Source of the DNA: Plasmodium brasilianum
Taxonomy: Eukaryota; Apicomplexa; Aconoidasida; Haemosporida; Plasmodiidae
Assembly: GCF_023973825.1 (NCBI RefSeq)
Contig: NC_090122.1
Span: 1,666,630 to 1,730,629 of the forward strand
DNA: 64,000 nt
Direction of reading: 5' to 3'
The notes under the pieces were generated by a model that was not told where the DNA came from, did no database searches, and was given only the letters and a program-made list of their open reading frames with translations. Positions within the stretch are counted from its first letter, which is position 1, and each line of letters starts with the position of its first letter. Positions 28,307-63,763 of the stretch are shown piece by piece. A program made the position numbers and the translations under genes.

Positions 28307-30955
28307 ATGGGAGCATATTTATCGGCACCAAAAACCAATAAAGAATCTATAGATGGAGGAAATTTAGAGTTGGATCCAAGTAGATATGGGTTGTCTTGTA
28401 TGCAGGGTTGGAGGAAGAATATGGAAGACAGCCATATTTGTTATAATAATCTGAAAGTGAATGAAATAGAAGAAGATATTTCGATATATGGTGTTTTTGA
28501 TGGTCATGGTGGCCCGAATGTATCAAAATGGATATCGTACAATTTTCGTAGAATATTTATAAAATGCATAAAAGAAGCTAGTGAGGAATTAATAAAAAAG
28601 AATATAGATAAATCGAAAAATTATAAATTAAAACTTATTAAATTAACTCTTGAAAAAACTTTTTTAAAATTAGATGAAGAAATGCTCTTAGCAGAAAATC
28701 AAGAAAAATTAAAAAAATACAGTGTGCCAACACAAGAAAATGAAGAAGAGTCGGATACAAGGGAAAATTATTTATATTCCATTTTAAATGATATAATATC
28801 AAAAAATATTAGCATTAAAGCAATAGAAAGGGATGGAAAAAGGTGTTTACAGGTTGTGTATAATAAAGATGGAAATCCTGTAGAAGAGGGGAGCACAGAA
28901 TCGTCAAGGTCTTTAACAGTTGATGAAGAAAATAATAAATCCTCGACCATATTTGATAGTTCAGATGGTATATTAAAATATGAAGACGATGAAGATGAAG
29001 AATTTGAAACAGAAATAAATGCAAAGGACGAAAGTAGTAAAGACATTGAAGATTTCGATGACGATGATAATATTAATAATAATAATGTTTTTAAAAAAGA
29101 TGGCGCAAATTCAAATGCTTTAACTGCCAGTAATAATGATACAAAAGTAGTTAAAGGAAAAAAAGATGCAGAAAAAAATGAATATGATACTGAGAAAAAG
29201 ATTAATGGTGATACAGAAGAAAATAGAGAAATAAATATATCACCTAACAAAGGAATGGCTGAAAAGGATGCAAGAAATGATAATGGATTGTTGAATTTAA
29301 ATAAAGAAAATAAAAATAAAATAAAAGATGAGGACAATAAAGAAATTTCTGATTATTTAGATTCGAATGATAGTGCTGAAACTAATGCTAAAAGATTAAA
29401 GAAAGATATGAATAATGAATATTCGATCAATGAAAAGGACAATAATAATAATAATAGTAGTAATAGTAATAATAATAACAGCAGTAATAGTAATAGCAAT
29501 AGTAATAATAATAATAGTAGCAGTAACAACAATAATAATAATTATAATAATGACAAAAATAATGACAACAATAATTATGACAACAATAATAATAACAAAG
29601 AGGAGGAAAATTTAATAAATAATAAGGAATATAATAAAACGGAAAAAGTAAAATCAGAATTAACATATGATAATTTAAAATGTATGGAGCAAGAAGCAGC
29701 AGAAGCAAAAAATAAACTTAATGAAGATTGTGACACAAATAATAGCACAAATGGAAATATAAGTGGTTATGATGAAAATTCATTGAGATTATATGAAAAA
29801 GGCAGTAGTAGTAGTAGTAGTGAGGAAGGTTTTTCCTATGATGAAGCAATAACAAATGTAATTGATAATAATATTAGTAGTAGCAATAGTGATGCAAATA
29901 ATGAAGGAGAAGATTGTAATGGAATATATGCTTCTGATGAACTACGTTTGTTTGAAAATTATTATTCAAATGATTATGAAGATAATATAGCGTATAGTTG
30001 TGGTTCGACAGCCATTGTAGCAGTTATATTAAAAGGATATTTAATTGTAGCCAATGCTGGAGATTCAAGGGCAATAGTTTGTTTTAATGGAAATTCCTTA
30101 GGTATGTCTACTGACCATAAACCACATTTACAAGAAGAGGAAACTAGAATTAAAAAAGCAGGTGGTTATATATCAAATGGTAGGGTAGATGGGAATTTAA
30201 ATTTGACAAGAGCAATTGGGGATTTACATTATAAAAGAGATCCATTTTTACCTCAAAAGGATCAGAAAATTTCTGCTTTCCCAGAAGTTACATGTGTTAC
30301 TTTAACACCTGATGATGAATTTTTATTCCTTGCGTGTGATGGAATATGGGATTGTAAAGATGGTCAAGATGTAGTTGGTTTTGTTAAAACACGTCTGGAG
30401 AAATTTGAGGAACCTACCAATGAGGAGACCCATATGGAAAAAATAGGTAATCATGAAAAAAACATTACTAGTGCAACGAGTGATAATATAGTTAGTAGTG
30501 TTAAAAATGATGAGGAAAATAAATGGAAAGATATTGAAAATAATTTAGATAAAGAAGAAAATAGAAATGTTGCAAGCAATGATCTAAACAGTAACAAAAA
30601 TGATAATGTTGTGAATGATGTGGATATTGTTTTAGCTACTGATGAAAATAAAATGGATGATGACAATAATAATATTCTTCAGGAAAAAAATGAAAATGAT
30701 GAAATGCATATAGAAAGAGACGATGAAGATGAGACTAAATTTGATTCCGCACCAATTATCGAAAGAACAAAATTCGAAAAATTTAATAAATTATCACAAA
30801 TATGTGAAGAATTATGTGATGAGTGTCTATCTAATAATTATAAAGAGAATGATGGAATTGGATGTGATAATATGACATGTTTAATAGTGCAGTATAACCC
30901 AGTTTATAAAATACACACAGAGAAGAAATTTTTAAATATAGATGAGATTGAGTAA
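28307..30955 (+). CDS. PPM2: PP2C-family metal-dependent protein phosphatase (PPM2-like), probably N-myristoylated
   Basis: Single exon, 882 residues. PP2C enzymes are Mn/Mg-dependent Ser/Thr phosphatases. The N terminus MGAYLSAP fits an N-myristoylation signal (Gly2, small residue at 6), so membrane attachment is likely. Motifs in order: GWRKNMEDSH (about 36-45), FDGHGG (about 65-70) with the metal-binding Asp, CGSTAIVAVI (about 565), ANAGDSRAIV (about 583-592), LTRAIGDLHY (about 633), ACDGIWD (about 676) and GCDNMTCLIV (about 851). All expected metal ligands are present, so it should be active. The catalytic fold is split by two long acidic inserts. One (about 110-555) has a pure Asn/Ser tract at 29440-29600, and the other spans about 700-830. 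Only one PP2C domain is present. The PPM2 name rests on architecture and its place beside GC-alpha. It diverges from GC-alpha across 6.3 kb. Confidence 0.9.
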   Translation: MGAYLSAPKTNKESIDGGNLELDPSRYGLSCMQGWRKNMEDSHICYNNLKVNEIEEDISIYGVFDGHGGPNVSKWISYNFRRIFIKCIKEASEELIKKNIDKSKNYKLKLIKLTLEKTFLKLDEEMLLAENQEKLKKYSVPTQENEEESDTRENYLYSILNDIISKNISIKAIERDGKRCLQVVYNKDGNPVEEGSTESSRSLTVDEENNKSSTIFDSSDGILKYEDDEDEEFETEINAKDESSKDIEDFDDDDNINNNNVFKKDGANSNALTASNNDTKVVKGKKDAEKNEYDTEKKINGDTEENREINISPNKGMAEKDARNDNGLLNLNKENKNKIKDEDNKEISDYLDSNDSAETNAKRLKKDMNNEYSINEKDNNNNNSSNSNNNNSSNSNSNSNNNNSSSNNNNNNYNNDKNNDNNNYDNNNNNKEEENLINNKEYNKTEKVKSELTYDNLKCMEQEAAEAKNKLNEDCDTNNSTNGNISGYDENSLRLYEKGSSSSSSEEGFSYDEAITNVIDNNISSSNSDANNEGEDCNGIYASDELRLFENYYSNDYEDNIAYSCGSTAIVAVILKGYLIVANAGDSRAIVCFNGNSLGMSTDHKPHLQEEETRIKKAGGYISNGRVDGNLNLTRAIGDLHYKRDPFLPQKDQKISAFPEVTCVTLTPDDEFLFLACDGIWDCKDGQDVVGFVKTRLEKFEEPTNEETHMEKIGNHEKNITSATSDNIVSSVKNDEENKWKDIENNLDKEENRNVASNDLNSNKNDNVVNDVDIVLATDENKMDDDNNNILQEKNENDEMHIERDDEDETKFDSAPIIERTKFEKFNKLSQICEELCDECLSNNYKENDGIGCDNMTCLIVQYNPVYKIHTEKKFLNIDEIE
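29438..29600 (+). repeat. Asn/Ser low-complexity tract in the PP2C insert
   Basis: AAT/AGT/AAC triplet mixture encoding an Asn-Ser run followed by Asn-Tyr-Asp repeats, inside the first large insert of the phosphatase. It is in frame and probably length-variable between isolates. Confidence 0.85.
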
Positions 30956-32335: not shown

Positions 32336-34465
32336 TTATACAAATAGGTTAGACTCCTTGGACGACGTTAAAAAAAATGTTAACATTTTTTTTAATTTTT
32401 CTTTTAATTCATCATCATCTAAGCAATCCTGAAAATCTGAAAAAACAGAAAAAAAAAAAAAAATTTGAGAAGGATCAGAAAAAAGTTTAAAGAAATATAG
32501 TTAAAATAGTACACAATTACACGAAAAAAAAAAAAAAATACTTCTTTAATTTCACAATTATTATGCAAATTAACCCACCTAGTATATTTTCATAAATAGA
32601 CTGTATGTCAATGTTTTTGGTGTACAAATGGATAAATATATTATTAGAAATATATGAATTGTTCATAAAAAAAAGAGCTATTAAGATTACATCAGTTAAC
32701 TGATATATGAGATATCCCTTGTCACATAATTCTATGTATTCGAGATTTTTTCTACAATCATCATCAATTTGGATATTCATTTTTTTTAAATTTTCATTTA
32801 CTAATAAATTTTTTTTTTTTTTTTCTTTTCATTGGTAATGATATCATTATATTTTTGCCTTATTTCTAACAAGCGGATAATTTTCTCACATTTTTTTTCT
32901 CCAAACTTATTTAGGACTCTTCCTAAGTAAGTTCCAGTGCAGTGTATACATAAATTGGATATGACCGTAATTATATTTTCTTCAAATTCAAATATGGTAA
33001 TTTTATTTTTTTGTATGTGCCTTAACATAAATAAGCAGAATAGATATTTTAACCCATTTAACTCTACAAATTTGTTGCACGCATCTTTATCGTTAAGCAC
33101 AATTGCAAAAATTTTTAAGGATGGGAAACATAAAAATTTTCTTTCACTAAGTAATTTCAACATTAATTCTAAACCTATAGTACTATCAAATACTTTTTTA
33201 TTATCATTTAGAAGTAATAAATTTCCTATGGCTTGAAAACAATTAAGCAGAATCTCTTTCTTGTTAATATTGGGAGGATCTTTATCTTTATATTTTGAAA
33301 TATATTTTAAAAGTGAATTAAAAATTGAAATAGTATAATAAAAATCATCATACACATTTTCAGCAAATTGATTTATTCGTAAGATAAGTAAAACCAAAAT
33401 TTCACTTGCATATAAAGAATTCGAATCATTTCCTTTTATTTCAACAGTAATTCTTTTTAATAAAAAAAATAATAACTTCGAATTAGTCAATAAGTCATTC
33501 TGTAAATTATTTTCTAACTCAAAAATATTCTCAAAAATGTTAAAGATAGAAGACATAGCATTGTAGTATTCATCATTCTCTTCTTCATTAATTTTCTCTA
33601 ACACATTTATAACAAAATGCGTTAGTTTTTTGTTGTTTAAATATTCAACTATTATGTTACTTACCTCTTTGTCTAACTCATATAAATTTGAAGGATTCGT
33701 TATCTCTTTAATGATATCAAGTACTTCAATAACTATATCATTATTTGGATGATTTAAAAGATCAACAATATCTCCTAAAATTTCACATTCAACCATACTT
33801 TTATACAAATTTGTGCATACACTTAAATTTTTGGTATTCACTAACATTTCGTCTAAGTCTACTTCACTACTCACCCATTTTTCCGGGTTGTCTGGATGCT
33901 CAATTCTATCTCGCTCATTCTTATTTTTTTTCTTTTTAAAAACAGTAGCGAACTTTTTTATGCTATTCTCGTCGATGCATTCGACCTATATCAAGGGGTT
34001 AAAGCATAAGCGTGTGTAAGGATGTATATTTATATGGATATATATGTACACACGCATGCGCGTGTACTATCGTACATACAGAAACGCACGTTACTATGCG
34101 TTCTAACACTTTTGGTTACATGAAAAAGGAATACACAAATTAACTTGTTAAAAAAAAAAAATAAAATAAATATAATAAAAAAAAAAAAATAAAAGGAAAT
34201 AAAGAAAAATAAAAAAAGTAAAATAAAAACAAAATAAAAAAAATATAAATAAATGTAATAGAATTAAAAATAAAAATTCACTGAAGATACACATTTTGCG
34301 GAATAAATTTTTGAGTAACACAAATTTATATGCACTAATGCAAATGGACACTTGTAACGGTTTCATTATTTTATTTTTTTTTTTTTTTTCTTTTATTTTT
34401 TATACATTTTCAGCTTGTTTTAAAATTTCCTCAATGTCAATATCATCTTCATCACTGTATTCCAT
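32336..34465 (-). CDS. CTNNBL1: Beta-catenin-like protein 1 (CTNNBL1), spliceosome-associated armadillo protein; frame broken at an A16 run
   Basis: Rebuilt from exons 34465-34406, 33985-32579 and 32436-32336 (minus strand). CTNNBL1 is an armadillo-repeat protein associated with the PRP19/CDC5L spliceosomal complex. Exon 1 is acidic (MEYSDEDDIDIEEIL). Exon 2 opens with the family signature HPDNPEKWVSSEVDLDEML, then armadillo repeats (LLNHPNNDIVIEVLDIIKE; LYASEILVLLIL; LNKFGEKKCEKIIRLLEIRQ). After an A16 run (32809-32824) the frame shifts. The continuation, with YLIYQLTDVILIALFF and NIDIQSIYENIL, matches the family's conserved C-terminal domain, and exon 4 ends ESNLFV. One extra A in the run gives 522 residues with every phase correct. 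The upstream frame otherwise stops at 32801 after 15 non-homologous bases. Intron 1 is 420 bp. Introns use GT/AG (AAAAT|gtataa; atag|GTCG; CTAG|gtgggt; ttcag|ATTTT). Confidence 0.85.
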
Positions 34466-36001: not shown

Positions 36002-39000
36002 CTATAAAATTTGCTTAAATAGATTAACGGCAAAACTAATTAAGGTATAGGATACAGATATAAAATGCAACTTTACTGCGTCTTTGGAAGTTGCATATTT
36101 CTTTTTAACAAAATCACAAACAATTAATAAAAGTAGCTTATTTTTTTTATCAACTGGATAGGTACTAAATAATATATTGTATGAATCAAAGTGCAAAACA
36201 TTAAATGAGTTATATAATTTTATGGAATTAATAAATTCATTAAAAGTTGAAAAGCCCACCATACTATAATAATAAGATTTGTAATAATATTTATTGTTAT
36301 CTGGGAACCTTTTTACAAAATTATTTAAATATAAACTATTTGGCTTGAGTAAAAACAGATGAGGAAATGGCAAGGCAACTTTGAATTCGATGGTAGTGTT
36401 ATCATTATATAAACATTGCAAATTCAAAAATAATGGCAAATTATGTAGGAGTTTTTTTTTGAAACATAGTGTATATAATAAACATATTTCATTCTTTTTT
36501 AAATTAATATAATCATTTTCTTCTATTACTTTGTTATAATTCTTTTTCAAATTCCTTTTAACTACCTTAATGTTATCCATTCTATTTTCGCTTAGATTAC
36601 TTTTAATGTAAATAATGTTATATAAAATCGACTTTATGTATATATTCAAGTACACATTTTCTTCTTTTATTTCTCCCTCTGCTTTGTTCAGCTTAGCATT
36701 ATTACTTTTATTGCTAGAGTTTACATTGTTCGAGTTTACCTTGCTGCTAGCGTTTACGTTGTTGTTCGTGTTTATGTTACTGCTAGCGTTTACGTTACTG
36801 CTAGCGTTTACGTTACTGCTAGCGTTTACGTTACTGCTAGCGTTTATGTTGCTGCTAGCATTTGAGTTTCTTCTAACGTTTACGTCATCATCGTTAGTAT
36901 TATTATGCTTTTCTGTGCTTCCTTTCCCCTTATATAGTTCTTCACCCTTGGAAACGTTAGCATAATAAAGCTTCGCATAAATCTTAACAAGGTTGTTTTC
37001 AAAAATGAGGCCCTTGGTATTTTTTGTATAAAAATTTCTCAGAAGATTTTTATGTTTATTAATATCTTCATCTGATAAAAAGTTGGATTTTATTCTTGTG
37101 TTTATATAATTGTCTAAGTATGATATTTTTTGTTCTTTTTTATTGCACTTATTAATTATTTTTTCTAAATTGGTAAAATAGCTTTTCCTATTCAAATTTA
37201 TAACATAACCAATTTTTTCACTGCTATTTGACATGAGACTTCCTTTAATATTTCTTGAAACCTTTACAAAGTAATTAAATTTCTTTTCAAACCTTTTATA
37301 ATCACTAAAATAGTCATTGGTTGTTTTTTTGCTCAACGTGTTTACTCGTTTGTGTTTATGCGAAATTGCACTTTTCCTTAATTGATGATCCTTGTTCCTT
37401 TCTCCTTTATCGTCTTCTGTTGCGTCTTCTCTTCCTTCATGTTTATTCATTATTTCATTATTCCAGTAGCAAGTGATCTTTTCTTTATTAAGTTTTTTTC
37501 CTCGACCTTTACGAATGTCCTTTATATAACTGTCACTCACTACATTCTTTATTTTTTTTTTCTTATTCGTCACTTCGGATGAACTTCCCTCCCCTTGATA
37601 TGAGTCGCTCAACATTTCACAGTTGTTAACAGTGTAATTTTCCCTAAATAAATGAGGGCTCTTACCTTTTTTTTTTTTTTTAGCATGATTAATATTATTA
37701 TTTTTTCTATTGTTAATTAAAATTTTTTTTTTCCTATATACTTTTTCCTTCTCCAAAGAAGACATACGATGATTGCAATTGTATTTGTTAATATTGTTGT
37801 TAATTCTTTCACTATTACTACTACTACTACTACTAGAACTACTGGTGGTATTTTTTTTGTGGTTGCTCTTTTTTTCCTTGTGGTTATGCATCTTACTTTC
37901 TAATTGTTCCTTACTATGCCCTTTTTTTAAATGTTTATTTTTATAGTTTTGATTTTTTTTCTTTTTATTTATATTCTTTAAAAAGTTCATTTGCTCACGG
38001 CTTTTTAAATAAAATGAAAAAGTGCTATTATTCGTTTGGACATCTAAGTCATCTCTAAACGCTTTATATAAATTATCACCAGGAATTATTCTATCATCTT
38101 TCGCTATTTGAAAATAGTTGACACCATTCATATGGTTATGTTTGTCATTCTTTTTATTATCATTAGGTACATTAAAAGGATAATTCTTTTTTTTATTTTT
38201 CTCTCCTTTCTTTTCTTCTTTTTGAACTTCATCCACTCTTTTCATATTAAAAATGAATCGATCACTTTGATTATTTGTTAACATGTTGTGGTGAAGTTGA
38301 CTATTGCTATTCTTTTCATTTTTTTCACTTTCTTCTTTTCGTACGTTTGTAAGAAAGTTGTCATAACCGATCAAGTCAGCGAAATCACTACTGTCGTCTT
38401 TTCTTCTATTCTCCTTAGTACTGGTCGAAGTCAAATATTTTTTATATTCCTCAATTAAAAAATTGTCAACTAATAAATCATTTTCTTCATCTACGGATTC
38501 CTTTGTATCGGTAACGGAAGCATCATAATCATCATGACCATCATCATTTTTAAAAAAATGTTTCTTCTCATTAAGACTATTATCCAAAATGTTGTTGTCA
38601 TCACAATCATAATTATTTCGTTCTTGCTCGTTGTTATGAACAGCAAAAAATTTCTCTAAAATTTTTGGACTTACATTTATCCTCTTTTGATTTTTGATAT
38701 AATTTTTCACAAATATATCATTAAAATTAGAGTTTTTCTTTACATATTTATATTTATTTATTATGTCATCGAGTAAGTGGTTGTAGCTGTTAGTTGTGGA
38801 ATTTTCTAAGTTCCAATTAATTTTTTTTAGTTTCATTAAACTTAAAGAATTTTTTTCATACTCGTTATAACTATTCTTGTGTATATGTTTTAATAAAAAG
38901 GATAGATATAACAAGAGCTTTTCATTTTTCATCTGTGCATTTTGCAACTGAAATAGCAAATTATTTACCTTGCTGTTAAGATTATTATTAATTTCACTTG

Positions 39001-42000
39001 AATATTTTAATTTTAATTTATGTTCATTAAAAATAGCATTTAACTTAGTAATTTGTTCTGATAAATGATCATTTTCTTTTTTATTTTTCTCAATTAATTT
39101 TTCAGCTTCTACAACTTTTTCATTTTCTTTTTCCAATTTTTCTATTTTACTATTTTTTTTTTGTACAATATTTTCTATAACTGTAATTATTTCTTTATTC
39201 GATTCTATTATTTCTTTTAACTTACTATTTGCATCTATGTAACTTTCATTATCTAATTCTAGCAGCATTACTAATTTATCCAGTTCTTCAATTTTTCTTT
39301 CGTTTTCCTTATTTTTATTTTCATAAAATACTTTCTCCTTATTACATACATTATATAACTGCTTGTATAGATTTAAATTATTCTGTTTTAATAATTCCGT
39401 CTCATGATCAAAATCATTATTTTTCAAAAATATATTCATTATTATATAGGAATAGTTACTCGAAAAATTCCTTTCTCTTTTGTTTAATTCTTCTTTCTTT
39501 TCTATTTCATTTTCAATCCTACTTCCTTTCATCATCCCATTGCTGGACGTTCTCATTTTATCGAAACTATCTGCATTGTTCAGCTTATTAAAATTACTCA
39601 TACCCACGTCTCCATTCATCACTCCCTTGTTAAAATTATTATCAAAGCTGCGATTGTTCCGGTTGAAGTTGCTACGGTTGAAGTTTAAGTTATTAAAGTT
39701 AAGATGACCGAAGTTAGAACTATTAAAATTAGTGTTACCGAAGTTAGGGTTACTGAAACTAGGGTCACTGAAGTAAGGGTCGCTGAAGTAAGGGTCGCTG
39801 AAGATAGGATTTGTAAGGTTAAAATTTTTTCTCGTAAAACTGAAGTTACTCATGTTCGGAGTGCTCAAATTTCTGCTAGTAAAATTGAAGTTACTCATGT
39901 TCGGAGTGCTCAAATTTCTGCTAGTAAAATTGAAGTTGCTCACGTTGGGGTTATTCAAACTTCTGCTGGTAGTAAAATTGAAGTTTTTAAAATTTAAAAC
40001 GTTCTTGTTATTGCTACGAGTAGAATTATAATTATTCATAGTATGGTTACTCAATTTTCGATTTGTTAAATGATCATTTATCCCTGAGAAATCATTAATA
40101 ATAGGTTTTGTAAAATTAAAATTCCTAGTGTTTCCATTGTTGCTATTATCATATCTAAATTTTGAACTTGGAAAAAGAGAATCATTGTTCATAAAAAAAC
40201 TTTTATTATTTTTAATTTCTTGATTAGGATAAAAATTGTCGGTAACTTGTGTTAATAAGTACGCTGTGGGTACAAAAAATTTAGTTTTCTTTAATATATT
40301 TTTATTTAGATTTATTAAGCAAGTGTAATAACGACAATTATTTATGCTATCTAATATATCAACTGATAAATACAACTGATTGTTATAAAAAATAGAAAAC
40401 TCGAACAATTCTGATACGTTTATAGAAAAATTCTCCACATTTTTACTTCTACTTTTCTTTCTTATATTTATTTTATTATCTAATGATTTTAATGTTAAAT
40501 ATATAAAAACATTTTTTATATTGAACGAAACGTTTATTATATCAGATATGTGAATTATTATAACTAATAAACTGCTTGAAGTTAACTGTTTATCATGGTT
40601 ACTTGTTTTACTTTTGGATAATTTATTTGATAACTTGAAATCATTTATTGATTCCATTATATTCTTATTTAAAAAATCATCTTCATTACTATTTAAACTT
40701 TCAAATTTGAATTTGTTCTCATATAATTCTTTCTTTTTTTTTTTTTTTTCCTCCTGTTATTATCCTTTACATTTGGGTAATTGAAATTTTCATCCATGTC
40801 ACTGCTTAAAATTTTGGTATCATTAGGGATACCGATATCCTTATTAAATGAATCTATTGACATTGATCTAAACATACCTTTATCATGAATATCTTTTTCT
40901 CTACTAATATCATCACTTAGATAATTTCTTCTTTTTTCTCTTTCTTTTTTTTTCTTCTTTTTTTTCTTTTCACGTTCTTTTCTTCTACTTCTACCTTTAC
41001 TTCCGCTTCTACTTCCACTCCTGCTTCTACTTCTACTTCTACTTCGATTTCTTTCTCTTTCATTTTCTTCATCTGTGCTTTTATATTTTCTTCCTTTTTT
41101 TTCATTCTGTTTTTCCCCTTCATGATGTTTTTTTTTTTTTGACATGTACCTCCTATTGTTGTTCATAAATGTTTTGTCACCTACTTCTGAATATCTCCTA
41201 TTTCCATCTTTTTTGTTTTTCTCAAAACTATCGAAAAGTTTAACTGCTCTGTTAACTTGGGTAGAAACCTAATCAGGATTGAATTCCACGATATACACAC
41301 AAATGTAAATAGGTACATACGCACATACAAGTGTACACGTATATATAAATATATATATCAAAATGTGAACATATAGGTAAACACAAGGACACATAAGCAG
41401 TACATAAAAAGACATACACATGCTCATCCATGTAGCTAAAATAAAAATAAAATAAAGTAAAATAATAACAGTATACCTCTACTAATTGCTCGAACAAATT
41501 TGCATTCCCCCTTTCTAGTGCCTCTAGTGTTAATTTTTCTAATATAAGTAAATCTCTGAAGGGGATAAAAAATATGTATATATATATGCATATACATTTT
41601 TTGGTGCCTTTTTTTGAATTTTTTTTTTTGACTCATGTGTTTGTGTGCAATTTCATATAATGCCAAAGCTTTAATTGCAATTTTTAGATTCCTTACTTTT
41701 TACATTCTCTGTATATTTCTCGCATCACATCAATATCTACATTTATGAAAATACAGAAAAGAGGTATATTTTATGATAAATATGTGTTTATAGATTTTGT
41801 TTTTCCTTCTTAAATGTGTATATATATGTACAAATATATATATATATATACATATACACGTGTGGGAGAACAGGTGGAGGATGTGAACAATATATATAAA
41901 GAGTAAATAGTAACATAATTTTCTTTAATAACCCGTCGAGTCATGATGCACACATGCCTCTAGTTGCTTCGCCAGTTCCTTAAAATTTGTAATTTTCTGT

Positions 42001-42014
42001 TTGACGTTTTTCAT
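36002..42014 (-). CDS. Candidate trunkless adaptor: GAT-like helices, C2-like domain, coiled coil and alpha-adaptin appendage-like C terminus
   Basis: Exons (minus strand) are 42014-41933, 41736-41697, 41555-41477 and 41268-36002. The last crosses an A16 run (40734-40749) where one added base joins two frames, giving 1822 residues with all phases consistent. Residues about 28-85 (MREIYRECKKDLLILEKL; LFEQLVEVSTQVNRAVKLFD) resemble the helical GAT domain of GGA/TOM1 proteins. An Arg/Ser-dipeptide and Lys-rich linker follows. Residues about 298-400 look like a C2-type beta sandwich. A FNFT/SNF repeat region and a coiled coil (about 677-863) come next. From about 1485 to the end the sequence fits an AP-2 alpha appendage: GLIFENNLVKIYAKL, then a NVNASS insert, FLNLQCLYNDNTTIEFKVAL, FVKRF, and a terminal helix. 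No adaptin trunk is present. A role in clathrin-type vesicle transport is inferred. The donor of exon 1 (ACGG|gttatt) is the weakest junction. Confidence 0.7.
36742..36862 (-). repeat. 18-bp tandem repeat encoding NVNASS
   Basis: About five to six units of an 18-bp element (core GCTAGCGTTTACGTTACT on the plus strand), coding for Asn-Val/Ile-Asn-Ala-Ser-Ser. They lie inside the predicted appendage domain, between its first strand and the rest, so they are likely a surface loop. Central copies are almost identical. Confidence 0.9.
39690..39985 (-). repeat. Degenerate SNFNFT / DPYFS repeats in the adaptor-like protein
   Basis: Two related arrays. One has 45-bp units coding for STPNMSNFNFTSRNL-type repeats (39830-39965), with two near-identical neighbouring copies. 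The other has 15-bp units coding for SDPYF/SNPNF-type repeats (39720-39800). Both lie in the linker between the C2-like domain and the coiled coil and are in frame. Confidence 0.85.
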
Positions 42015-43327: not shown

Positions 43328-44711
43328 TCATATTAAAGCATTAATTCCTAAAAAAACAATAAATAACAATGATAATAGCAATAATATTAGTAGCAATATA
43401 GCAAAAGCAGTAATAGCAATATAACATTTGCAATAGGAATAATAATATATTGTTAACATCGTGCGAGATGAGTTTTGTAGGAATGTAAAAACTTACCAAA
43501 TAAGAGAAGAGCGTTTTCTGGTGTAAATTTTGCTGATATTAAATTTGAATAATTAACTCCATACGACTTTGATAACTTAACATATGGATTATTTTTTTTG
43601 GGGGACTTTTCTAATTTTATCCTTTTGTTTTCTACGGAACTCTTTGTTTCTTTTGAGGCTAAAAAGCATAATCGATACAATTTAAAAACGGGCCAAACAT
43701 GTATGTATATGTGTGTGTACTCAATTGTACATAAGCGGCTGTGTATACGCATATACATATGTGTGCATATATAAGTGTATACATATATGTGTAAATTCCA
43801 ATATGCCCATGGCACGATTTTTTTATTTTCATTTTATTACCTTTTGAACAATTGTAAAAATCAATGAGACTGTTAGAAGACATAGAAACTAACAGATTGT
43901 TATCATAACTGAAGTCCATATTTAAAATTTTGTCTTCATAGTAATCAATACTACTTATAGTTTTCGATTTGCCATTTTCTTTTTTTGCATATTCTTTGTT
44001 TAAAAAATTATTATCTATATAACTATCAAACGATTTAGTTGTATGAAAATATGGGGTATCCTCAAGCTGATTCGTACCAATAGTATTCTTTGATTCCACG
44101 TTAATATATTTGTCAGTTGCCAAGTCAATAAGATTTATATTATTCGTATAACCACCTTTTAATCGGCATAAAAAGATATAAAAATGGGAAGAAAAAGTTA
44201 TATTAAAAGATGCACAGTGGATTATGAAATAACTAACATGCAACGTGTAACTGAAAACTATAAATAATATATAACAAGAGGATTAATAAACAGATTAACT
44301 CGCGGGTTAACAAAAGGATGAACAAATAACTGCTATGTAACATCTACTACATGATGAACAAACATTAGAGATTAAAATAAATAAGGTTTCCAAAAAATTA
44401 AATAAAATAAAGTACTATAAAATAAAATAAATAAAACGAATTAAAATACCTGCATACGAAAGTAATTTCCCGTTTTTGGAAAAACATAATGAAGTTACTC
44501 CTTGACTGCTCGGATAGTTATTCTTAAACCGCTTGATGAACGAATTTACCCTTACGTCATATAGATGTACATAATTGTCTAAATGATGGGACAAATGGCA
44601 TGTGCACATGTTTCATGTGCCGTAAAGAGGTTATATATTATATGCATAAACATATACATAAACACACACAAATATATATAAATATATATACATATGTATA
44701 TATCTACGCAC

Positions 44712-44742
<31 letters not shown>

Positions 44743-45557
44743 ACAATTATGTAGTCAGAATTTACCGAAATATCCGCAAGCTACAAGCGTGCTATTGTAG
44801 TGATATTTACAAATGTTGGCAGTGGAATTATATTTATACGTAATAAAGGGGTAGGTTTTATTAGTTGAGTAGATCCTTAAATTTCCATCATCTTCACATG
44901 AACAAAAAAAATAACCTAAAAAGGCCGTATCAAGATACCATATGGGGGTATGTCCTCCTACATATTTCACATAATTTTTATTACTAATAGTACTGTATAA
45001 ATATATATCTCCATTTACATTACCTGATAATAAAATTTTATTTGTTTCACCAAAACATAAACTAGAAACATTAAATATATTACCATACAATTTCGATATT
45101 TCATTTTCCTCCTGATCATCTAAATCAATAGATATTGTATTAATTTCTTTTAAATGATCATATTTTCTAATATCACTTGGATCTACTATACTACTGTTTT
45201 CCATATCTCTTTTTTTATTTTTTATTTTATTTATTTGTGATTGTTTAATATTCCACAATTTGATTATATTATTTGTATGAGCTGTTGCAACTAATGATCC
45301 ATCAAATCCTGAAATTTCTGCACACGTCATGTCGTTGCAATTGTTCAGGCAGTAATATAACATACTGGGCATTCTATTTTTTGTAACTTTTAATCTATTT
45401 CTCACTTGTGTCCTTATTATGTGCTTATAGTAGTAGTATGCGTCACTAGTTTCATTTGGTACATACGCATTTTCTTCCTTTTCCTTTACTAATTTACTGT
45501 TGTCATCCTGCATTGTTGCAATGGGTAACAAACACATGAAATTAAATTACAGAAAAA

Positions 45558-56810: not shown

Positions 56811-57407
56811 CATAAGTATAAATTTATAAATATCACACTTAATTGCCGCATTTTTTGCATGCAGGCTTAGTTTTACATATAGAAAAGTGGTATTGTAAAA
56901 TTTTTTAATGGTTCTGTATATATAACTGAACAGAATAATGTATGCATTTAGTATGTGTACACATGAGTATATGGAGAACATGCTTCTTTACACATTCAGA
57001 AGCATACATATATATATATATATATATACGTATACACGCATGGGTTTTTACATTATGCTGTATTATTATTTATGTTAATATACTTTTACATTGATGTTAA
57101 CAAGTTTATGGAAAATTTTTTTGGGGAAAATACATCTCTATAGTTCAATATAAAAATGTGTCGTTAGTCCAGAATTAAAAAAAATAGAAAAAAAAAGTAA
57201 CACATTTTGCACACTCAGACATAACAAGAATTAAAGATGTGTTATTAACAGATTAATCTTATTATTTGTTTACTTAATACAAAATATATTTTAAAAAATA
57301 AAAAGCATTAATGTGCTTAAGTTGATTCATAATGCTTATGTTCACAGACTTTTAACTTAGTAATAGAAAAGAAAAACTCTTATTACTTTTTTATTTTTAC
57401 CATATAC

Positions 57408-57735
57408 ATTTTTTTGCTTTTACTTCTTTATTTTTTGCTTTTACTTCTTTATTTTTTGCTTTTACTTCTTTATTTTTTGCTTTTACTTCTTTATTTTTTG
57501 CTTTTACTTCTTTATTTTTTGCTTTTACTTCTTTATTTTTTGCTTTTACTTCTTTATTTTTTGCTTTTACGTCTTTATTTTTTGCTTTTACGTCTTTATT
57601 TTTTGCTTTCACGTCTTTATTTTTTCCCTTTACCTCTCCATATTTCTCTCTTGCCTCCCCATTTTTGTCTCTTGCCTCCCCATTTTTGTCTCTTACCTAC
57701 CCATTTTTGTCTCTTACCTACCCATTTTTTCCACA
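57408..57735. repeat. 21-bp pyrimidine-rich tandem array directly upstream of the RRM gene
   Basis: About ten near-identical copies of TTTTTGCTTTTACTTCTTTAT pass into about five diverged, more GC-rich copies (TTTTTGTCTCTTGCCTCCCCAT-like) with the same 21-bp period, ending about 80 bp before the ATG at 57818. On the minus strand part of the array reads as a heptapeptide repeat (AKNKEVK). On the plus strand it is an almost pure pyrimidine tract, probably in the 5' UTR or promoter. Confidence 0.9.
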
Positions 57736-57817
57736 TATCTCCCTACTATTTTCTCTTCTCCATTTTTTTCTTTATCACTTTCGGCTTCTTCACTTTTTGT
57801 TCTGCCTATTTGTCAAA

Positions 57818-60800
57818 ATGAACAGCACATATTACGAATTAAAAAACAGTTCGAACGGCAATATGCTTGATGATTTTTTAAGTTATCCTAATTTTTTAAA
57901 ATTCATTGATAATAGTAATAATAATGACAATGAGAATTTTGAAGAGTCTAGAAAATATATACATAGGGAAATAACTAAAACACTGAATGCAAACTCTGCA
58001 AAAATAGGTAGAAATTCGGATGAAAGAAATGTACAAGGTAGTAGTAATAATAATAAGACTTTATCAAAAAATATAAAAAATCAAAATAAGAAGGACTATT
58101 CATACAGTAGCAGTAATAAGGACGAGGATGAAACGAAATGGAATAAGAACCGTAACAATTACGTAAATTACAGCAACAGTAGTAGTAGTAATAGTAATAC
58201 TTATAATAATTCTAGTATTTATAATAATGCTAATAATTATAATAATGCAAATAGTTGTAACAATGGATATAATTATAATAGTGCAAATAATTTTAATAAT
58301 GGAAGTAATTACAACATTAATAATACAAAAAGTAGCAACACGGTCATATCATCTTTGCAAAAATCTTCAGTTGTACAGAATGAGGTATGTGATAATAAAC
58401 GTGAGTCAAACAGTTACAGGAAGAAGAGTGAAATAAATAATGAGGATGCGAGCAGAATAAACGAGGCTATTTTATTAAATCAAAAAGAGAATTTATTAAA
58501 ACATGAATTCTTTTCTTCAGAAGAAAATAAAAATGCGTTGTATGAACAAGCGGATGATAAAAGAATAAATCGAAATTTAATTCATTTCATTTTCGAAAAC
58601 GAAGAGAAGTTTAACTTCTCAACGAAAAGTAAGGAATTTCATTCGTACGAAATGCAAAACAGTAGTAATAATATTAATAATATCCACGACAATAACAATA
58701 GCAATAACATTAGCAATAATATTAGCAATAATGATGGTAATAACATTAGCAATAACATTAGCAATAATGATATGAATAATTTTAGTAAGTATTATAACAG
58801 CAATTATAGTATTACTGAAGAACCGCATGCGAATGTTTTGAACTCAGGTGAATTTAACAATACAAAAAAGAGACCAAATAACTTACTACCATCAGCTAAA
58901 GTAGAAGATAAAAAGAAAAAAAAGGAAAAAGAGAACTTAATCTATTTTTTTAACAAACATAGAGTTGAAAATAATGAGAGCTTAGAAAGAGATATAATAT
59001 ACAGTGATCCTTTAAAAAATAGAAGTCTTCGTTATAATGCACTCAGAAACGCCATGCACGCTGGTATGAGTAACAGCATTAATGGAAATATGTTGGACGT
59101 TAATAAGATGTACAAATATGAGAACAAGAATAAGGCACAAATTTTTTTCCAGAAAAAAGTGAACGAAAAAAAGGAAAATTGTAAAATACACAGAATCGAA
59201 AATAACCCTAATAAGTACAAAAAGTATAATAACTTGAAAGATAATTTTTATTTGAATAATAATAAAAAATATTTTTGTACAAACGTAGATTATATAAAAA
59301 ACAAATCCGAGTTTTTCCTGAGAACTGACACAGATGAAAGAATATACGCAAATAATATGATGTACGACGATTATTTTACAATCGAAAATTTGGAGAAATG
59401 TGATGATAAGAAAGAATATAATAACAGCAGTGAGAGCAGGGTCAACCGAAGTAACGGAAACGTCAATGGCAATGGAAACAGTATCAGCAGTCGTAGTAAC
59501 AATGGTGGCATGATAAAGAATAGCATGCTAGGGTATCGCTTCCGTAAAAATATAGATAACAAGGAATTCATATCAAATAAAAATAAATATGAAAATTTCA
59601 TGGAAATAAACAACATAAATAAAAGAAGTATGAATGATGAAGAGTTCCGTGGAAATAGTTTGAACGATTTTTCTTTGGACGATTTTACAAGTGAGCACAG
59701 CTGTATGCGTAAAGACTATTTCAACACTAACATAAATAATGATGTAAAAATTGACTTAAATTATAATGAAGATATTGAAAATAATAATACTGTGATGGAT
59801 GCAAATTTAAAGGAAGTAATTCCAGAACATAATAATGCAAAGTTATTAAACAATACACATTTTATACCATATAAAATTATGTATGAAAATCAAAATAAAC
59901 AAGAAAAAAAATATAGGAATATTCATATTAATAGTAGTATTCAAATAGAAGAAGAGAAGGAATCTCTAGGCAAACAAATGAATAGCCTTTTGTCAGGTAA
60001 AAATACATACTATCAAAAAAAATGTGATACAGCAATATGTGAGAACTATGAAGCTAATAACAGTAGTAGCAATAATGGGGATGCAAGCGACCACTTATAC
60101 AGTAATAGCAATTGCAACAGAAATAGCAGCAGCATTAGAAATATGAACGGAGACCATGGCATCATGAGCAAAGTGATCAATGCGAATGATAGTGGTGGCT
60201 TCACGAGAGAGTTACCAAAGTTTGAGCATATAGACATAGGAGGGAGTTACGACATAGAAGAGTCAAAAGAGAGTAACACAAATAAGTTGAATGACATAAA
60301 TGAAAAGGAAAATTTTGTAGTAAAATTATTTTTTGGTAATTTGGCTCCAATAACTACAGAAAAAGATATGCACACTTTATTTAGTAATTTTGGTGAATGT
60401 GATTCTTTAATAATATTAAAAGACAGGAGAAGTAAATCAAGGGGTTCAGGTTTTGTTACTTTTTATAACATGCAAGAAGCTATAAATGCTATTAAGAGTT
60501 TAAATAATAAAATAATATTGTCTGGTGCACATAAGCCATTAGAAGTTCGTTTTCCTGAGAATAAAGAAGAAAAAAATTTAAGAACAAAATTATTAAATGC
60601 AGCTAAATGGAAAGGGAAAAAAATTGCCCCAAGTGGTTGTTTGGCAATAAGTACAGAAGATATATTAAATCAAAGTACATTAAATATGAACAGTTCGGGT
60701 AATAATAACGTTTCTCTTATTAATACAAATGATTCTTCTTATTTTTTTTCAGAAAATGATAACAATAATAATAATAATAGTACCAATAATAATATTAGTA

Positions 60801-61306
60801 ACAATAATAATAATAGTACCAATAATAATAATAGTACCAATAATAATAATAGTACCAATAATAATAATAGTACCAATAATAATAATAGTACCAATAATAA
60901 TAATAGTACCAATAATAATAATAGTACCAATAATAATAATAGTACCAATAATAATAATAGTACCAATAATAATAATAGTACCAATAATAATAATAGTACC
61001 AATAATAATAATAGTACCAATAATAATAATAGTACCAATAATAATAATAGTACCAATAATAATAATAGTACCAATAATAATAATAGTACCAATAATAATA
61101 ATAGTACCAATAATAATAATAGTACCAATAATAATAATAGTACCAATAATAATAATAGTACCAATAATAATAATAGTACCAATAATAATAATAGTACCAA
61201 TAATAATATTAGTAACAATAATAATAATAGTACCAATAATAATAATAGTACCAATAATAATAATAGTACCAATAATAATAATAGTACCAATAATAATAAT
61301 AGTACC

Positions 61307-61338
<32 letters not shown>

Positions 61339-63763
61339 TAATGGTAATAGTAGTAACAATAATAGTAATAGTAGTAACAATAATAGTAATAGTAGTAACA
61401 ATAATAGTAATAGTAGTAACAATAATAGTAATAATAATAATATTTCTTATGACAAAAAGGAAATTACTACTAACTGCCATATTTCTAGTGTTGATCCTTT
61501 AGGTTGTTCTAATATTGATTACTATGATCGTTTTAGTGGAAAAAATCAGTTCGCTTATTATGCAGACGATTTTTATGATTTTCAAAAATCAACTAGCCAA
61601 ACGACGAATGATATGTTAAATACAGAATATTTCAACAAGGTAGAAGAGTATAACAAAATGTTTACGTACAACTCTTATAACAAACAAGTGGAGGAAAATA
61701 TACCGGATCAAATGAATAATACTAATTTAATAATACACAGAAAAAATTATAATCATTTTTTACCAAATTTTTTAATTGATAGTAAATCTTCAATAAACTT
61801 AGAATCAAATTCATTTGAAAGCACAACATTAAGTGCATTGGGACATCCTAATAATGATAATTTAGAAAGTAACAATCTGTTAAAACATTTTACTGCTTCT
61901 GAGCAAAATGAGGATAGAAGCCTCTGTGCGCTCCCTGAGATGAATCATAAGCCGGTGAATATACATAACGATAAGAATTTAGATCAAAATTGTAATAGTG
62001 GTACTAGTTCTACCAGTAATTTGAATATCAATTGTATGAGCGTAAACAGTATGAGCGTGAATAGTATCATTGCGAATAGCAACAGTGTGAATAGTTATGA
62101 CACGAATAATCATAGCATGAGTAAATACGGTACGAAAAATTATGGTGCTAATAATTATGGATCTAATACTTACAGTGCTAATACGTATGGTTCTAATACT
62201 TGTGGTTCGAATACTTATGGATCTAATACGTATAGTTCTAATGCTTATGGATCTAATACTTACAGTGCTAATACGTATGGTTCTAATACTTGTGGTTCGA
62301 ATACTTATGGATCTAATACGTATAGTTCTAATGCTTATGGATCTAATACGTATAGTTCTAATGCTTATGGTTCTAATGCTTATGGTTCTAATGCGTATGG
62401 TTCTAATGCTTATGGTTCTAATGCTTATGGTTCTAATACTTATGGTACGAATAATCATAGCAGTGGTAATTACAGTAACTCAAGCTGCTGTGCAAAGGAA
62501 GAGGTGGATGAATTTAACTTATATTTTTCAAGTTTTTTCAACAGCTTCTCAGATAAAGGGGGAAAAAAAAATGATGCAGATACATTATTCTGCTATCTAG
62601 ACAAGAATAACAAATTTATTGATGAAGATGATAAAAGATATGAACAGCAAGAATTTTATTACCTTGATGATTTTCGTCCAGAGAAAAAAATTTATGAAAA
62701 CAATAAAAGGGAATACAATGATTTAAGAAATGTACTGCACATCCCTAAAGAGATACACGATATCGTAAATGAGGATAATATTACTACTGATATATATGAT
62801 AGTAACAAAAATAGTAACAACTTAGAAGAAGGATATAACAACATTAATGTACATTACTTAGGTTTCAACTTGTCTCATTTAATAAAATCAAATGAAGATA
62901 TATTAGCAAAGAATGAAAATATATCGTCTAATAATACATACTCTAGTGAAAATGAAATAGAAGGCAAAAAAGGCGAAAAAAATGTGTTAGGCGATTATGA
63001 TGATAAAGAGTACCAATCAAGATATATCAATAATAGTGCCATGTGCTACGTGCAAATCGCAGATTCACATATACCCACGAACCGCTCAGATATGGGCGAA
63101 TCGAATAATAGCAATAATAATGGCAATAATAATAGTAACAGTAAAAGCAAAAATAATAGCAGCAATAGCAACAGTAATAACAATCGTAATTATAGTATTG
63201 ATAATAATTATAATGATAATAATTATAATGATAATATTTATAATGATGATAGTTGTAATGATGATAATTGTAATGATAGTTGTAATGATGGTAGTTGTAA
63301 TGATGATAGTTGTAATGATGATAGTTATAATAATAATAATAATTGTAATTATAGTAATGATAAGGATAATAATGTTAATAATAATAATGATAAAAAAAAT
63401 AATAATAATAATGATAAAAAAAATAATAATAATAATGATAAAAAAAATAATAATAATAATGATAAAAAAAATAATAATAATAATGATAAAAATAATAATA
63501 ATAATAATGATAAAAATAATAATAATAATAATAATGATAATAATGATAAAAAGCTAAATATTAATAACAAAATAAGCGATGAAATGCTAAAAAAGTTAAT
63601 AAGCCTATATACCAAAAACAAATCATCAATTTTCACTTCTCATATGCTTAGTTATCTAAATAATGTATTATGTGAAATAAATAACGACTTAGAAATATTC
63701 AACAAATTCAATGTGAAGACTTCAATCAAAAATACGAATGACAATAAAAATGCAAAACAGTAA
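57818..63763 (+). CDS. CELF/Bruno-type RNA-binding protein with a single RRM and many tandem repeats
   Basis: Single exon, 1981 residues from the ATG at 57818. The frame is open further upstream to 57665, but that part is the low-complexity 21-bp repeat array, so I take the later ATG (MNSTYYELK). One RRM lies at about residues 831-920, with RNP2 LFFGNL, RNP1 SRGSGFVTF and the tail HKPLEVRFPENKEEKN. This loop-strand layout is typical of CELF/CUGBP family RRMs, so single-stranded RNA binding is likely. No second RRM is seen, whereas CELF proteins usually have three. A short basic helix follows (LLNAAKWKGKKIAPSG). The rest is Asn/Ser/Asp-rich: N runs before the RRM, an NNNNST array at about 980-1168, a SNxYG array at about 1442-1546, and N/D and DKKNNNNN arrays near the C terminus. 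The last 60 residues (MLKKLISLYTKNKSS and on) are more complex and helical, possibly a second domain. The target and stage of action are unknown. Confidence 0.9.
60762..61320 (+). repeat. 18-bp tandem repeat encoding NNNNST
   Basis: About 21 consecutive AATAATAATAATAGTACC units, a break reading NNNISNNNNNST, then about five more units. The same break also precedes the first block, so a block boundary appears to have been duplicated. The units are almost identical at DNA level. It is followed by a 21-bp NSNSSNN array (61340-61430). Confidence 0.95.
62146..62455 (+). repeat. 15-bp SN(T/A)YG repeat containing an exact 90-bp tandem duplication
   Basis: Fifteen-base units such as TATGGTTCTAATGCT encode Tyr/Cys-Gly/Ser-Ser/Ala-Asn-Thr/Ala. 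Bases 62161-62250 and 62251-62340 are identical, a 90-bp (six-unit) duplication, followed by homogeneous YGSNA units. Confidence 0.95.
63376..63545 (+). repeat. 24-bp repeat encoding DKKNNNNN
   Basis: About five to seven units of GATAAAAAAAATAATAATAATAAT, giving Asp-Lys-Lys followed by five Asn, with later copies losing one Lys. Each copy contains an A8 run. It lies just before the conserved C-terminal helix of the RRM protein. Confidence 0.9.

Follow-up and report, generated by a model that had tools for sequence, protein, structure and literature searches.

The gene read on the minus strand from its start ATG at 42014 to 36002 of a 64,000-nucleotide stretch of Plasmodium brasilianum DNA (contig NC_090122.1; hereafter the window, whose positions are used throughout) is, judged by its sequence, the orthologue of the Plasmodium protein KIC5, and it probably encodes a trunkless endocytic adaptor consisting of a GAT bundle, a charged linker, a C2 domain, an Asn/Phe-rich hinge, a coiled coil, and an alpha-adaptin appendage. 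An earlier note, made from the DNA alone, had proposed here an undescribed clathrin-type adaptor and had guessed a link to the K13 compartment. The link is correct, KIC5 being a K13-compartment protein, but the protein is not undescribed, since its alpha appendage without a trunk was published in 2023 (PMC10718435). The text of that paper does not mention GAT or C2 for KIC5, which a figure or supplement could show; no further paper pairing KIC5 with either domain was found, and the main text of PMC11079077 does not mention KIC proteins. Databases already know the C2 domain, as the UniRef names of four of 10 orthologues begin with 'C2 domain'. The new content would be the predicted GAT bundle and, for the literature, the predicted C2 domain. 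The gene comprises the following features:

41933..42014, minus strand: exon 1, opening the GAT-like bundle (begins with the ATG at 42014; placed by splice site and frame, orthologues starting alike)
41697..41736, minus strand: exon 2 (GTAAGG donor, ATGTAG acceptor; agrees with orthologue sequence)
41477..41555, minus strand: exon 3 (GTATAC donor, CTTCAG acceptor)
41206..41268, minus strand: first part of exon 4, in which the GAT-like three-helix bundle ends (protein residues 68-88; AG precedes 41268)
40693..41268, minus strand: exon-4 open frame, a charged RS/K-rich linker from GAT to C2 (predicted local distance difference test score, pLDDT, <50 in the P. knowlesi orthologue model)
40734..40749, minus strand: run of 16 A, in which the exon-4 frame gives way to the main frame
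36002..40756, minus strand: main open frame of 1584 amino acids (C2, Asn/Phe-rich repeats, coiled coil, linker, appendage)
40244..40570, minus strand: predicted C2 sandwich (fold from the P. knowlesi orthologue, residues 320-412)
39659..39814, minus strand: Asn/Phe-rich pentapeptide-like repeats, hinge (Pfam Pentapeptide_4, E 0.00035, below its cut-off)
38873..39409, minus strand: conserved helical, coiled-coil-like segment (ends from conserved blocks; coiled coil judged by eye)
36371..37033, minus strand: appendage sandwich subdomain (predicted strands, low pLDDT; VIA-align)
36005..36370, minus strand: appendage platform subdomain

Orthology and gene structure could be observed directly. A search with the C-terminal 525 residues of the 1584-residue frame returned 10 proteins, all from Plasmodium, with identities of 44 to 69%, among them the P. 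yoelii protein named KIC5 (P0007; 44% identity over 90% of the query), which can be aligned with the other orthologues over its whole length. N-terminal and C-terminal segments occur together in eight of the 10 annotated orthologues; the models of P. ovale (P0001) and P. yoelii KIC5 have their first residue inside the GAT-like bundle, so that the short initial exons were probably overlooked in these two. The protein searches (10, 8, and 10 matches) gave no relative outside Plasmodium, a result that does not establish absence because the method needs shared exact words; P. falciparum is likewise absent from the matches, and P0007 and P0009 are missing from the list of eight, although P0009 has the N terminus.

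The N-terminal and C2 folds were read from a predicted model of the P. knowlesi orthologue. In this model, helices at residues 4-23, 29-56, and 59-94 form a three-helix bundle of GAT order, apparently of the C-terminal type and followed by a disordered linker. The four best rows of the 50 listed in the structure search are GGA GAT domains (1.5-2.5 Å over 82-85 residues). Among the 11 PDB hits of the sequence search, no natural protein other than GGA3 covers most of the segment, and the GGA3 alignment score was reached by none of 300 shuffles. The GAT-like N terminus anticipated by the earlier note is thereby borne out at the level of prediction. Elsewhere in the genome, PF03127 matched one weak place (14.6 bits); a GAT split over four exons, as here, is invisible to a six-frame genome search.

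Similar support was obtained for the C2 domain, also expected from the sequence. The same model contains seven strands between residues 320 and 408, and all three Foldseek matches under 0.001 are C2-containing, namely PLC-epsilon (3.3e-4), PI3KC2a, and the NEDD4 C2. Ranks 5-50 of the structure search are C2-containing proteins aligned on the C2 part, with rank 37 also spanning the N terminus, and sandwich domains of glycoside hydrolases and MD-2 rank below the C2 rows in Foldseek. The repeats of the hinge that follows vary among the orthologues seen (NPNF in P. ovale, GPSF in P. knowlesi) and could serve as multivalent partner motifs.

The C terminus is predicted to be a two-subdomain alpha-adaptin appendage, an assignment resting on predicted structure, with sequence similarity that is not significant. 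The GLIFENNLVKI opening strand, the EFKVAL strand, FVKRF, and the terminal helix lie where the earlier note had placed them. A second look at the predicted appendage model with VIA-align matched the alpha-appendage fold, sandwich and platform. In the model, the sandwich subdomain has low-pLDDT strands at 6-12, 16-25, 126-135, 143-146, 183-192, 201-208, and 214-221 and a low-complexity Asn-rich insert (about 36955-36662). Foldseek with this model alone returned nothing under 0.001, its top row being an immunoglobulin, so that VIA-align, not Foldseek, supplies the assignment. At the sequence level, the local GLIFEN strand stands out (score reached by five of 200 shuffles), and hhalign recovered the first strand only. 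The PDB profile search with the appendage gave chance-level matches with no adaptin among them. PF02883 exceeded its cut-off at two neighbouring places on another contig and not in the KIC5 gene, while PF02296 matched nothing in the genome, controls included, and is hence uninformative.

Adaptin trunk and VHS are absent from the Pfam scans, as had been stated earlier: Adaptin_N was found neither in the window frame (E up to 1) nor in five of the 10 orthologues (E up to 5), VHS and CUE were likewise not found in these sequences, and no adaptin, GAT, or C2 family was assigned by Pfam in the window frame or the same number of whole orthologues. Neither VHS nor an Arf-binding N-GAT precedes the bundle, whose first residue corresponds to GGA residue 211 in the structural match; an in-frame stop lies just upstream of the ATG and orthologue models share the start, although an unseen upstream exon is possible. 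The label 'clathrin-type' has so far found no support: the two main frames of the window contain neither NPF nor DPF, and their single clathrin-box-like match falls within the coiled coil. Clathrin has been located by others at cytostome collars (PMC12742282).

Several observations qualify the proposed architecture. FVKRF, taken earlier as the counterpart of the platform motif FF.RW, is not conserved (FVKKF, FVKNF, FVKNF, FINNH, FIKSY, and FIKNN in the other six alignment rows); its first F is the only invariant residue in the seven-row alignment, and its register relative to the FF.RW pocket is not fixed by sequence. None of the seven rows matched an adaptin or appendage family in the Pfam scan, the overall appendage alignment score was reached by 60 of 200 shuffles, and that of the platform alone, no better than chance, by 109 of 300. 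The reading frame of KIC5 changes inside the run of 16 A (40749-40734). In addition, ubiquitin contacts of the GGA3 GAT comprise L227, M231, and L247 with E246 and E250 (PMC7721868); those of helix 2 map to positions 30 (E, D, or A), 31 (V or I), and 34 (D or E) in seven sequences, and the helix-1 pair maps to E13 and Q17, not kept in the aligned register. Further such points concern the N terminus, where KIC5 might be an appendage scaffold as published, with a generic bundle, e.g., of the syntaxin Habc type, that has neither GAT ancestry nor ubiquitin binding. Habc and GAT bundles are alike (PMC7721868), high Z scores are common for helical proteins, Pfam GAT matched three of seven members with a best score of 19.1 bits, far under the curated cut-off of 31, and unrelated helical families score beside it. 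However, the four GGA rows leading the structure search, the coverage achieved by GGA3, and the shuffling result speak against a generic bundle, which we consider rather unlikely. No Habc chain occurs among the 50 rows listed, which excludes nothing.

Less probable still is that KIC5 acts mainly as a nuclear or DNA-stress regulator through an SMC/Rad50-like segment, its drug response bypassing vesicle traffic. Simmons et al. predicted a nuclear localization signal and Smc and Rad50 domains in KIC5 and reported altered DNA-stress transcripts in a mutant with an insertion in the 5' untranslated region (PMC9829687). However, Pfam matches the coiled coil weakly and to an unrelated family, as is usual for coiled coils (MCPsignal, best E 0.045 in five orthologues), KIC5 was not observed in the nucleus according to the text of Schmidt et al. 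(PMC10718435), and both terminal folds, as predicted, are of the vesicle-adaptor kind.

The coding sequence suspected at 36002-42014 is confirmed by four exons with splice signals, joined to the 1584-residue frame. GT donors and AG acceptors flank the short exons 1-3, and eight codons separate the ATG from the nearest in-frame stop upstream. Orthologue proteins read without interruption across the site of the A run, and the frame change may reflect either homopolymer length in the assembly or slippage. That the exons come from two separate genes, with an architecture produced by joining them wrongly, is very improbable: the frame change does fall between linker and C2, and P0001 and P0007 begin within the GAT, but both termini lie in one annotated model in eight of 10 orthologues, and all 10 share 20 invariant positions in the range 50-84.

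The neighbourhood also appears to fit KIC5, since the P. falciparum gene, PF3D7_1138700 (PMC9829687), is close in number to PF3D7_1138500, a two-domain PP2C, gene order in P. falciparum being judged from gene numbers only. The neighbouring features are:

28307-30955, plus strand: PP2C phosphatase, two matched stretches (Pfam E 2.8e-59; fits PF3D7_1138500)
32801-33985, minus strand: catenin-beta-like (CTNNBL) gene, between the phosphatase and KIC5 (E 5.3e-101)
43659-45546, minus strand: exons with WD40 repeats, lying upstream on the KIC5 strand

Farther away, an open frame of 2135 amino acids with an RRM domain (E 3.8e-14) lies at 57356-63763 on the plus strand.

The predicted domain order of KIC5 recalls several known adaptors. 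It shares with GGA proteins a GAT bundle and an ear at opposite ends of one chain, but lacks VHS and the Arf-binding N-GAT, has a C2 domain instead, and carries an alpha-type two-subdomain ear, in contrast to the gamma ear of GGA. The earlier idea of a GGA analogue with C2 in place of VHS is supported by prediction as far as GAT, C2, and ear in one chain are concerned, but so far not in its clathrin link. With the AP-2 alpha subunit KIC5 has the predicted two-subdomain appendage in common but differs from it in showing no adaptin trunk in the Pfam scans. KIC4/KAE is likewise an adaptin ear without a trunk at the K13 ring; KIC4 consists of VHS, GAT, and a beta-type ear (PMC10718435), whereas KIC5 would combine GAT, C2, coiled coil, and an alpha-type ear. 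Toxoplasma KAE is described as an alpha-ear protein without a trunk, the ear of which binds Eps15 via WxxF motifs (PMC10105704); Schmidt et al. regard KAE as equivalent to KIC4, and their text identifies no Toxoplasma KIC5 (PMC10718435). GAT plus C2 is also the combination of TOM1-Tollip, there in two proteins as opposed to the single chain of KIC5, and the C2 domain of Tollip is contacted by helix 3 of the GAT of TOM1, which weakens the binding of this C2 to lipids (PMC13386808).

Returning to KIC5 as a trunkless endocytic adaptor, we infer each of its binding events. The C2 domain, perhaps with the GAT, may anchor the protein to the plasma membrane at the Kelch13 ring, and self-association may occur through the coiled coil. 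The GAT may recognize ubiquitin or else a short motif in a partner, while accessory proteins such as Eps15 may be gathered by the appendage; KIC5 would then act alongside AP-2, outside the AP-2 complex. Truncation of KIC5 results in slower growth and a smaller parasite and food vacuole, with no endocytosis defect seen in trophozoites according to the text of PMC10718435; a drug-response phenotype of the truncation has been published by others. In a P. yoelii UBP1 mutant, KIC5 ubiquitin peptides increase (PMC10899652), which makes KIC5 part of a ubiquitin circuit, albeit without showing it to read ubiquitin. GAT and C2 in one chain, viewed with the TOM1-Tollip contact, suggest a scaffold that would recognize lipid and ubiquitin, contain a coiled coil, and offer an alpha ear to partners of the Eps15 type. 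More tentatively, as a possibility we regard as rather unlikely, KIC5 might be a one-chain TOM1-Tollip module whose GAT recognizes ubiquitin on proteins of the K13 ring, such ubiquitin being attached or removed around K13 and UBP1, and regulates the C2 of the same chain, while the alpha ear recruits Eps15.

KIC5 is located at a site whose proteins affect the artemisinin response of the parasite. The predicted GAT and C2 would turn it from an ear on an unknown body into a hybrid recalling GGA and TOM1-Tollip, and would give it testable activities (ubiquitin, phosphoinositide, and Eps15 binding). K13 is a ligase adaptor, and the two domains would connect the role of an adaptor with the ubiquitin enzymes present there, UBP1 among them. 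KIC4 and KIC5 would be two GGA-like hybrids in parallel, the former with a beta-type and the latter with an alpha-type ear, and, if the more tentative proposal is true, a complementary pair of trunkless ubiquitin-reading adaptors beside AP-2 at the cytostome.
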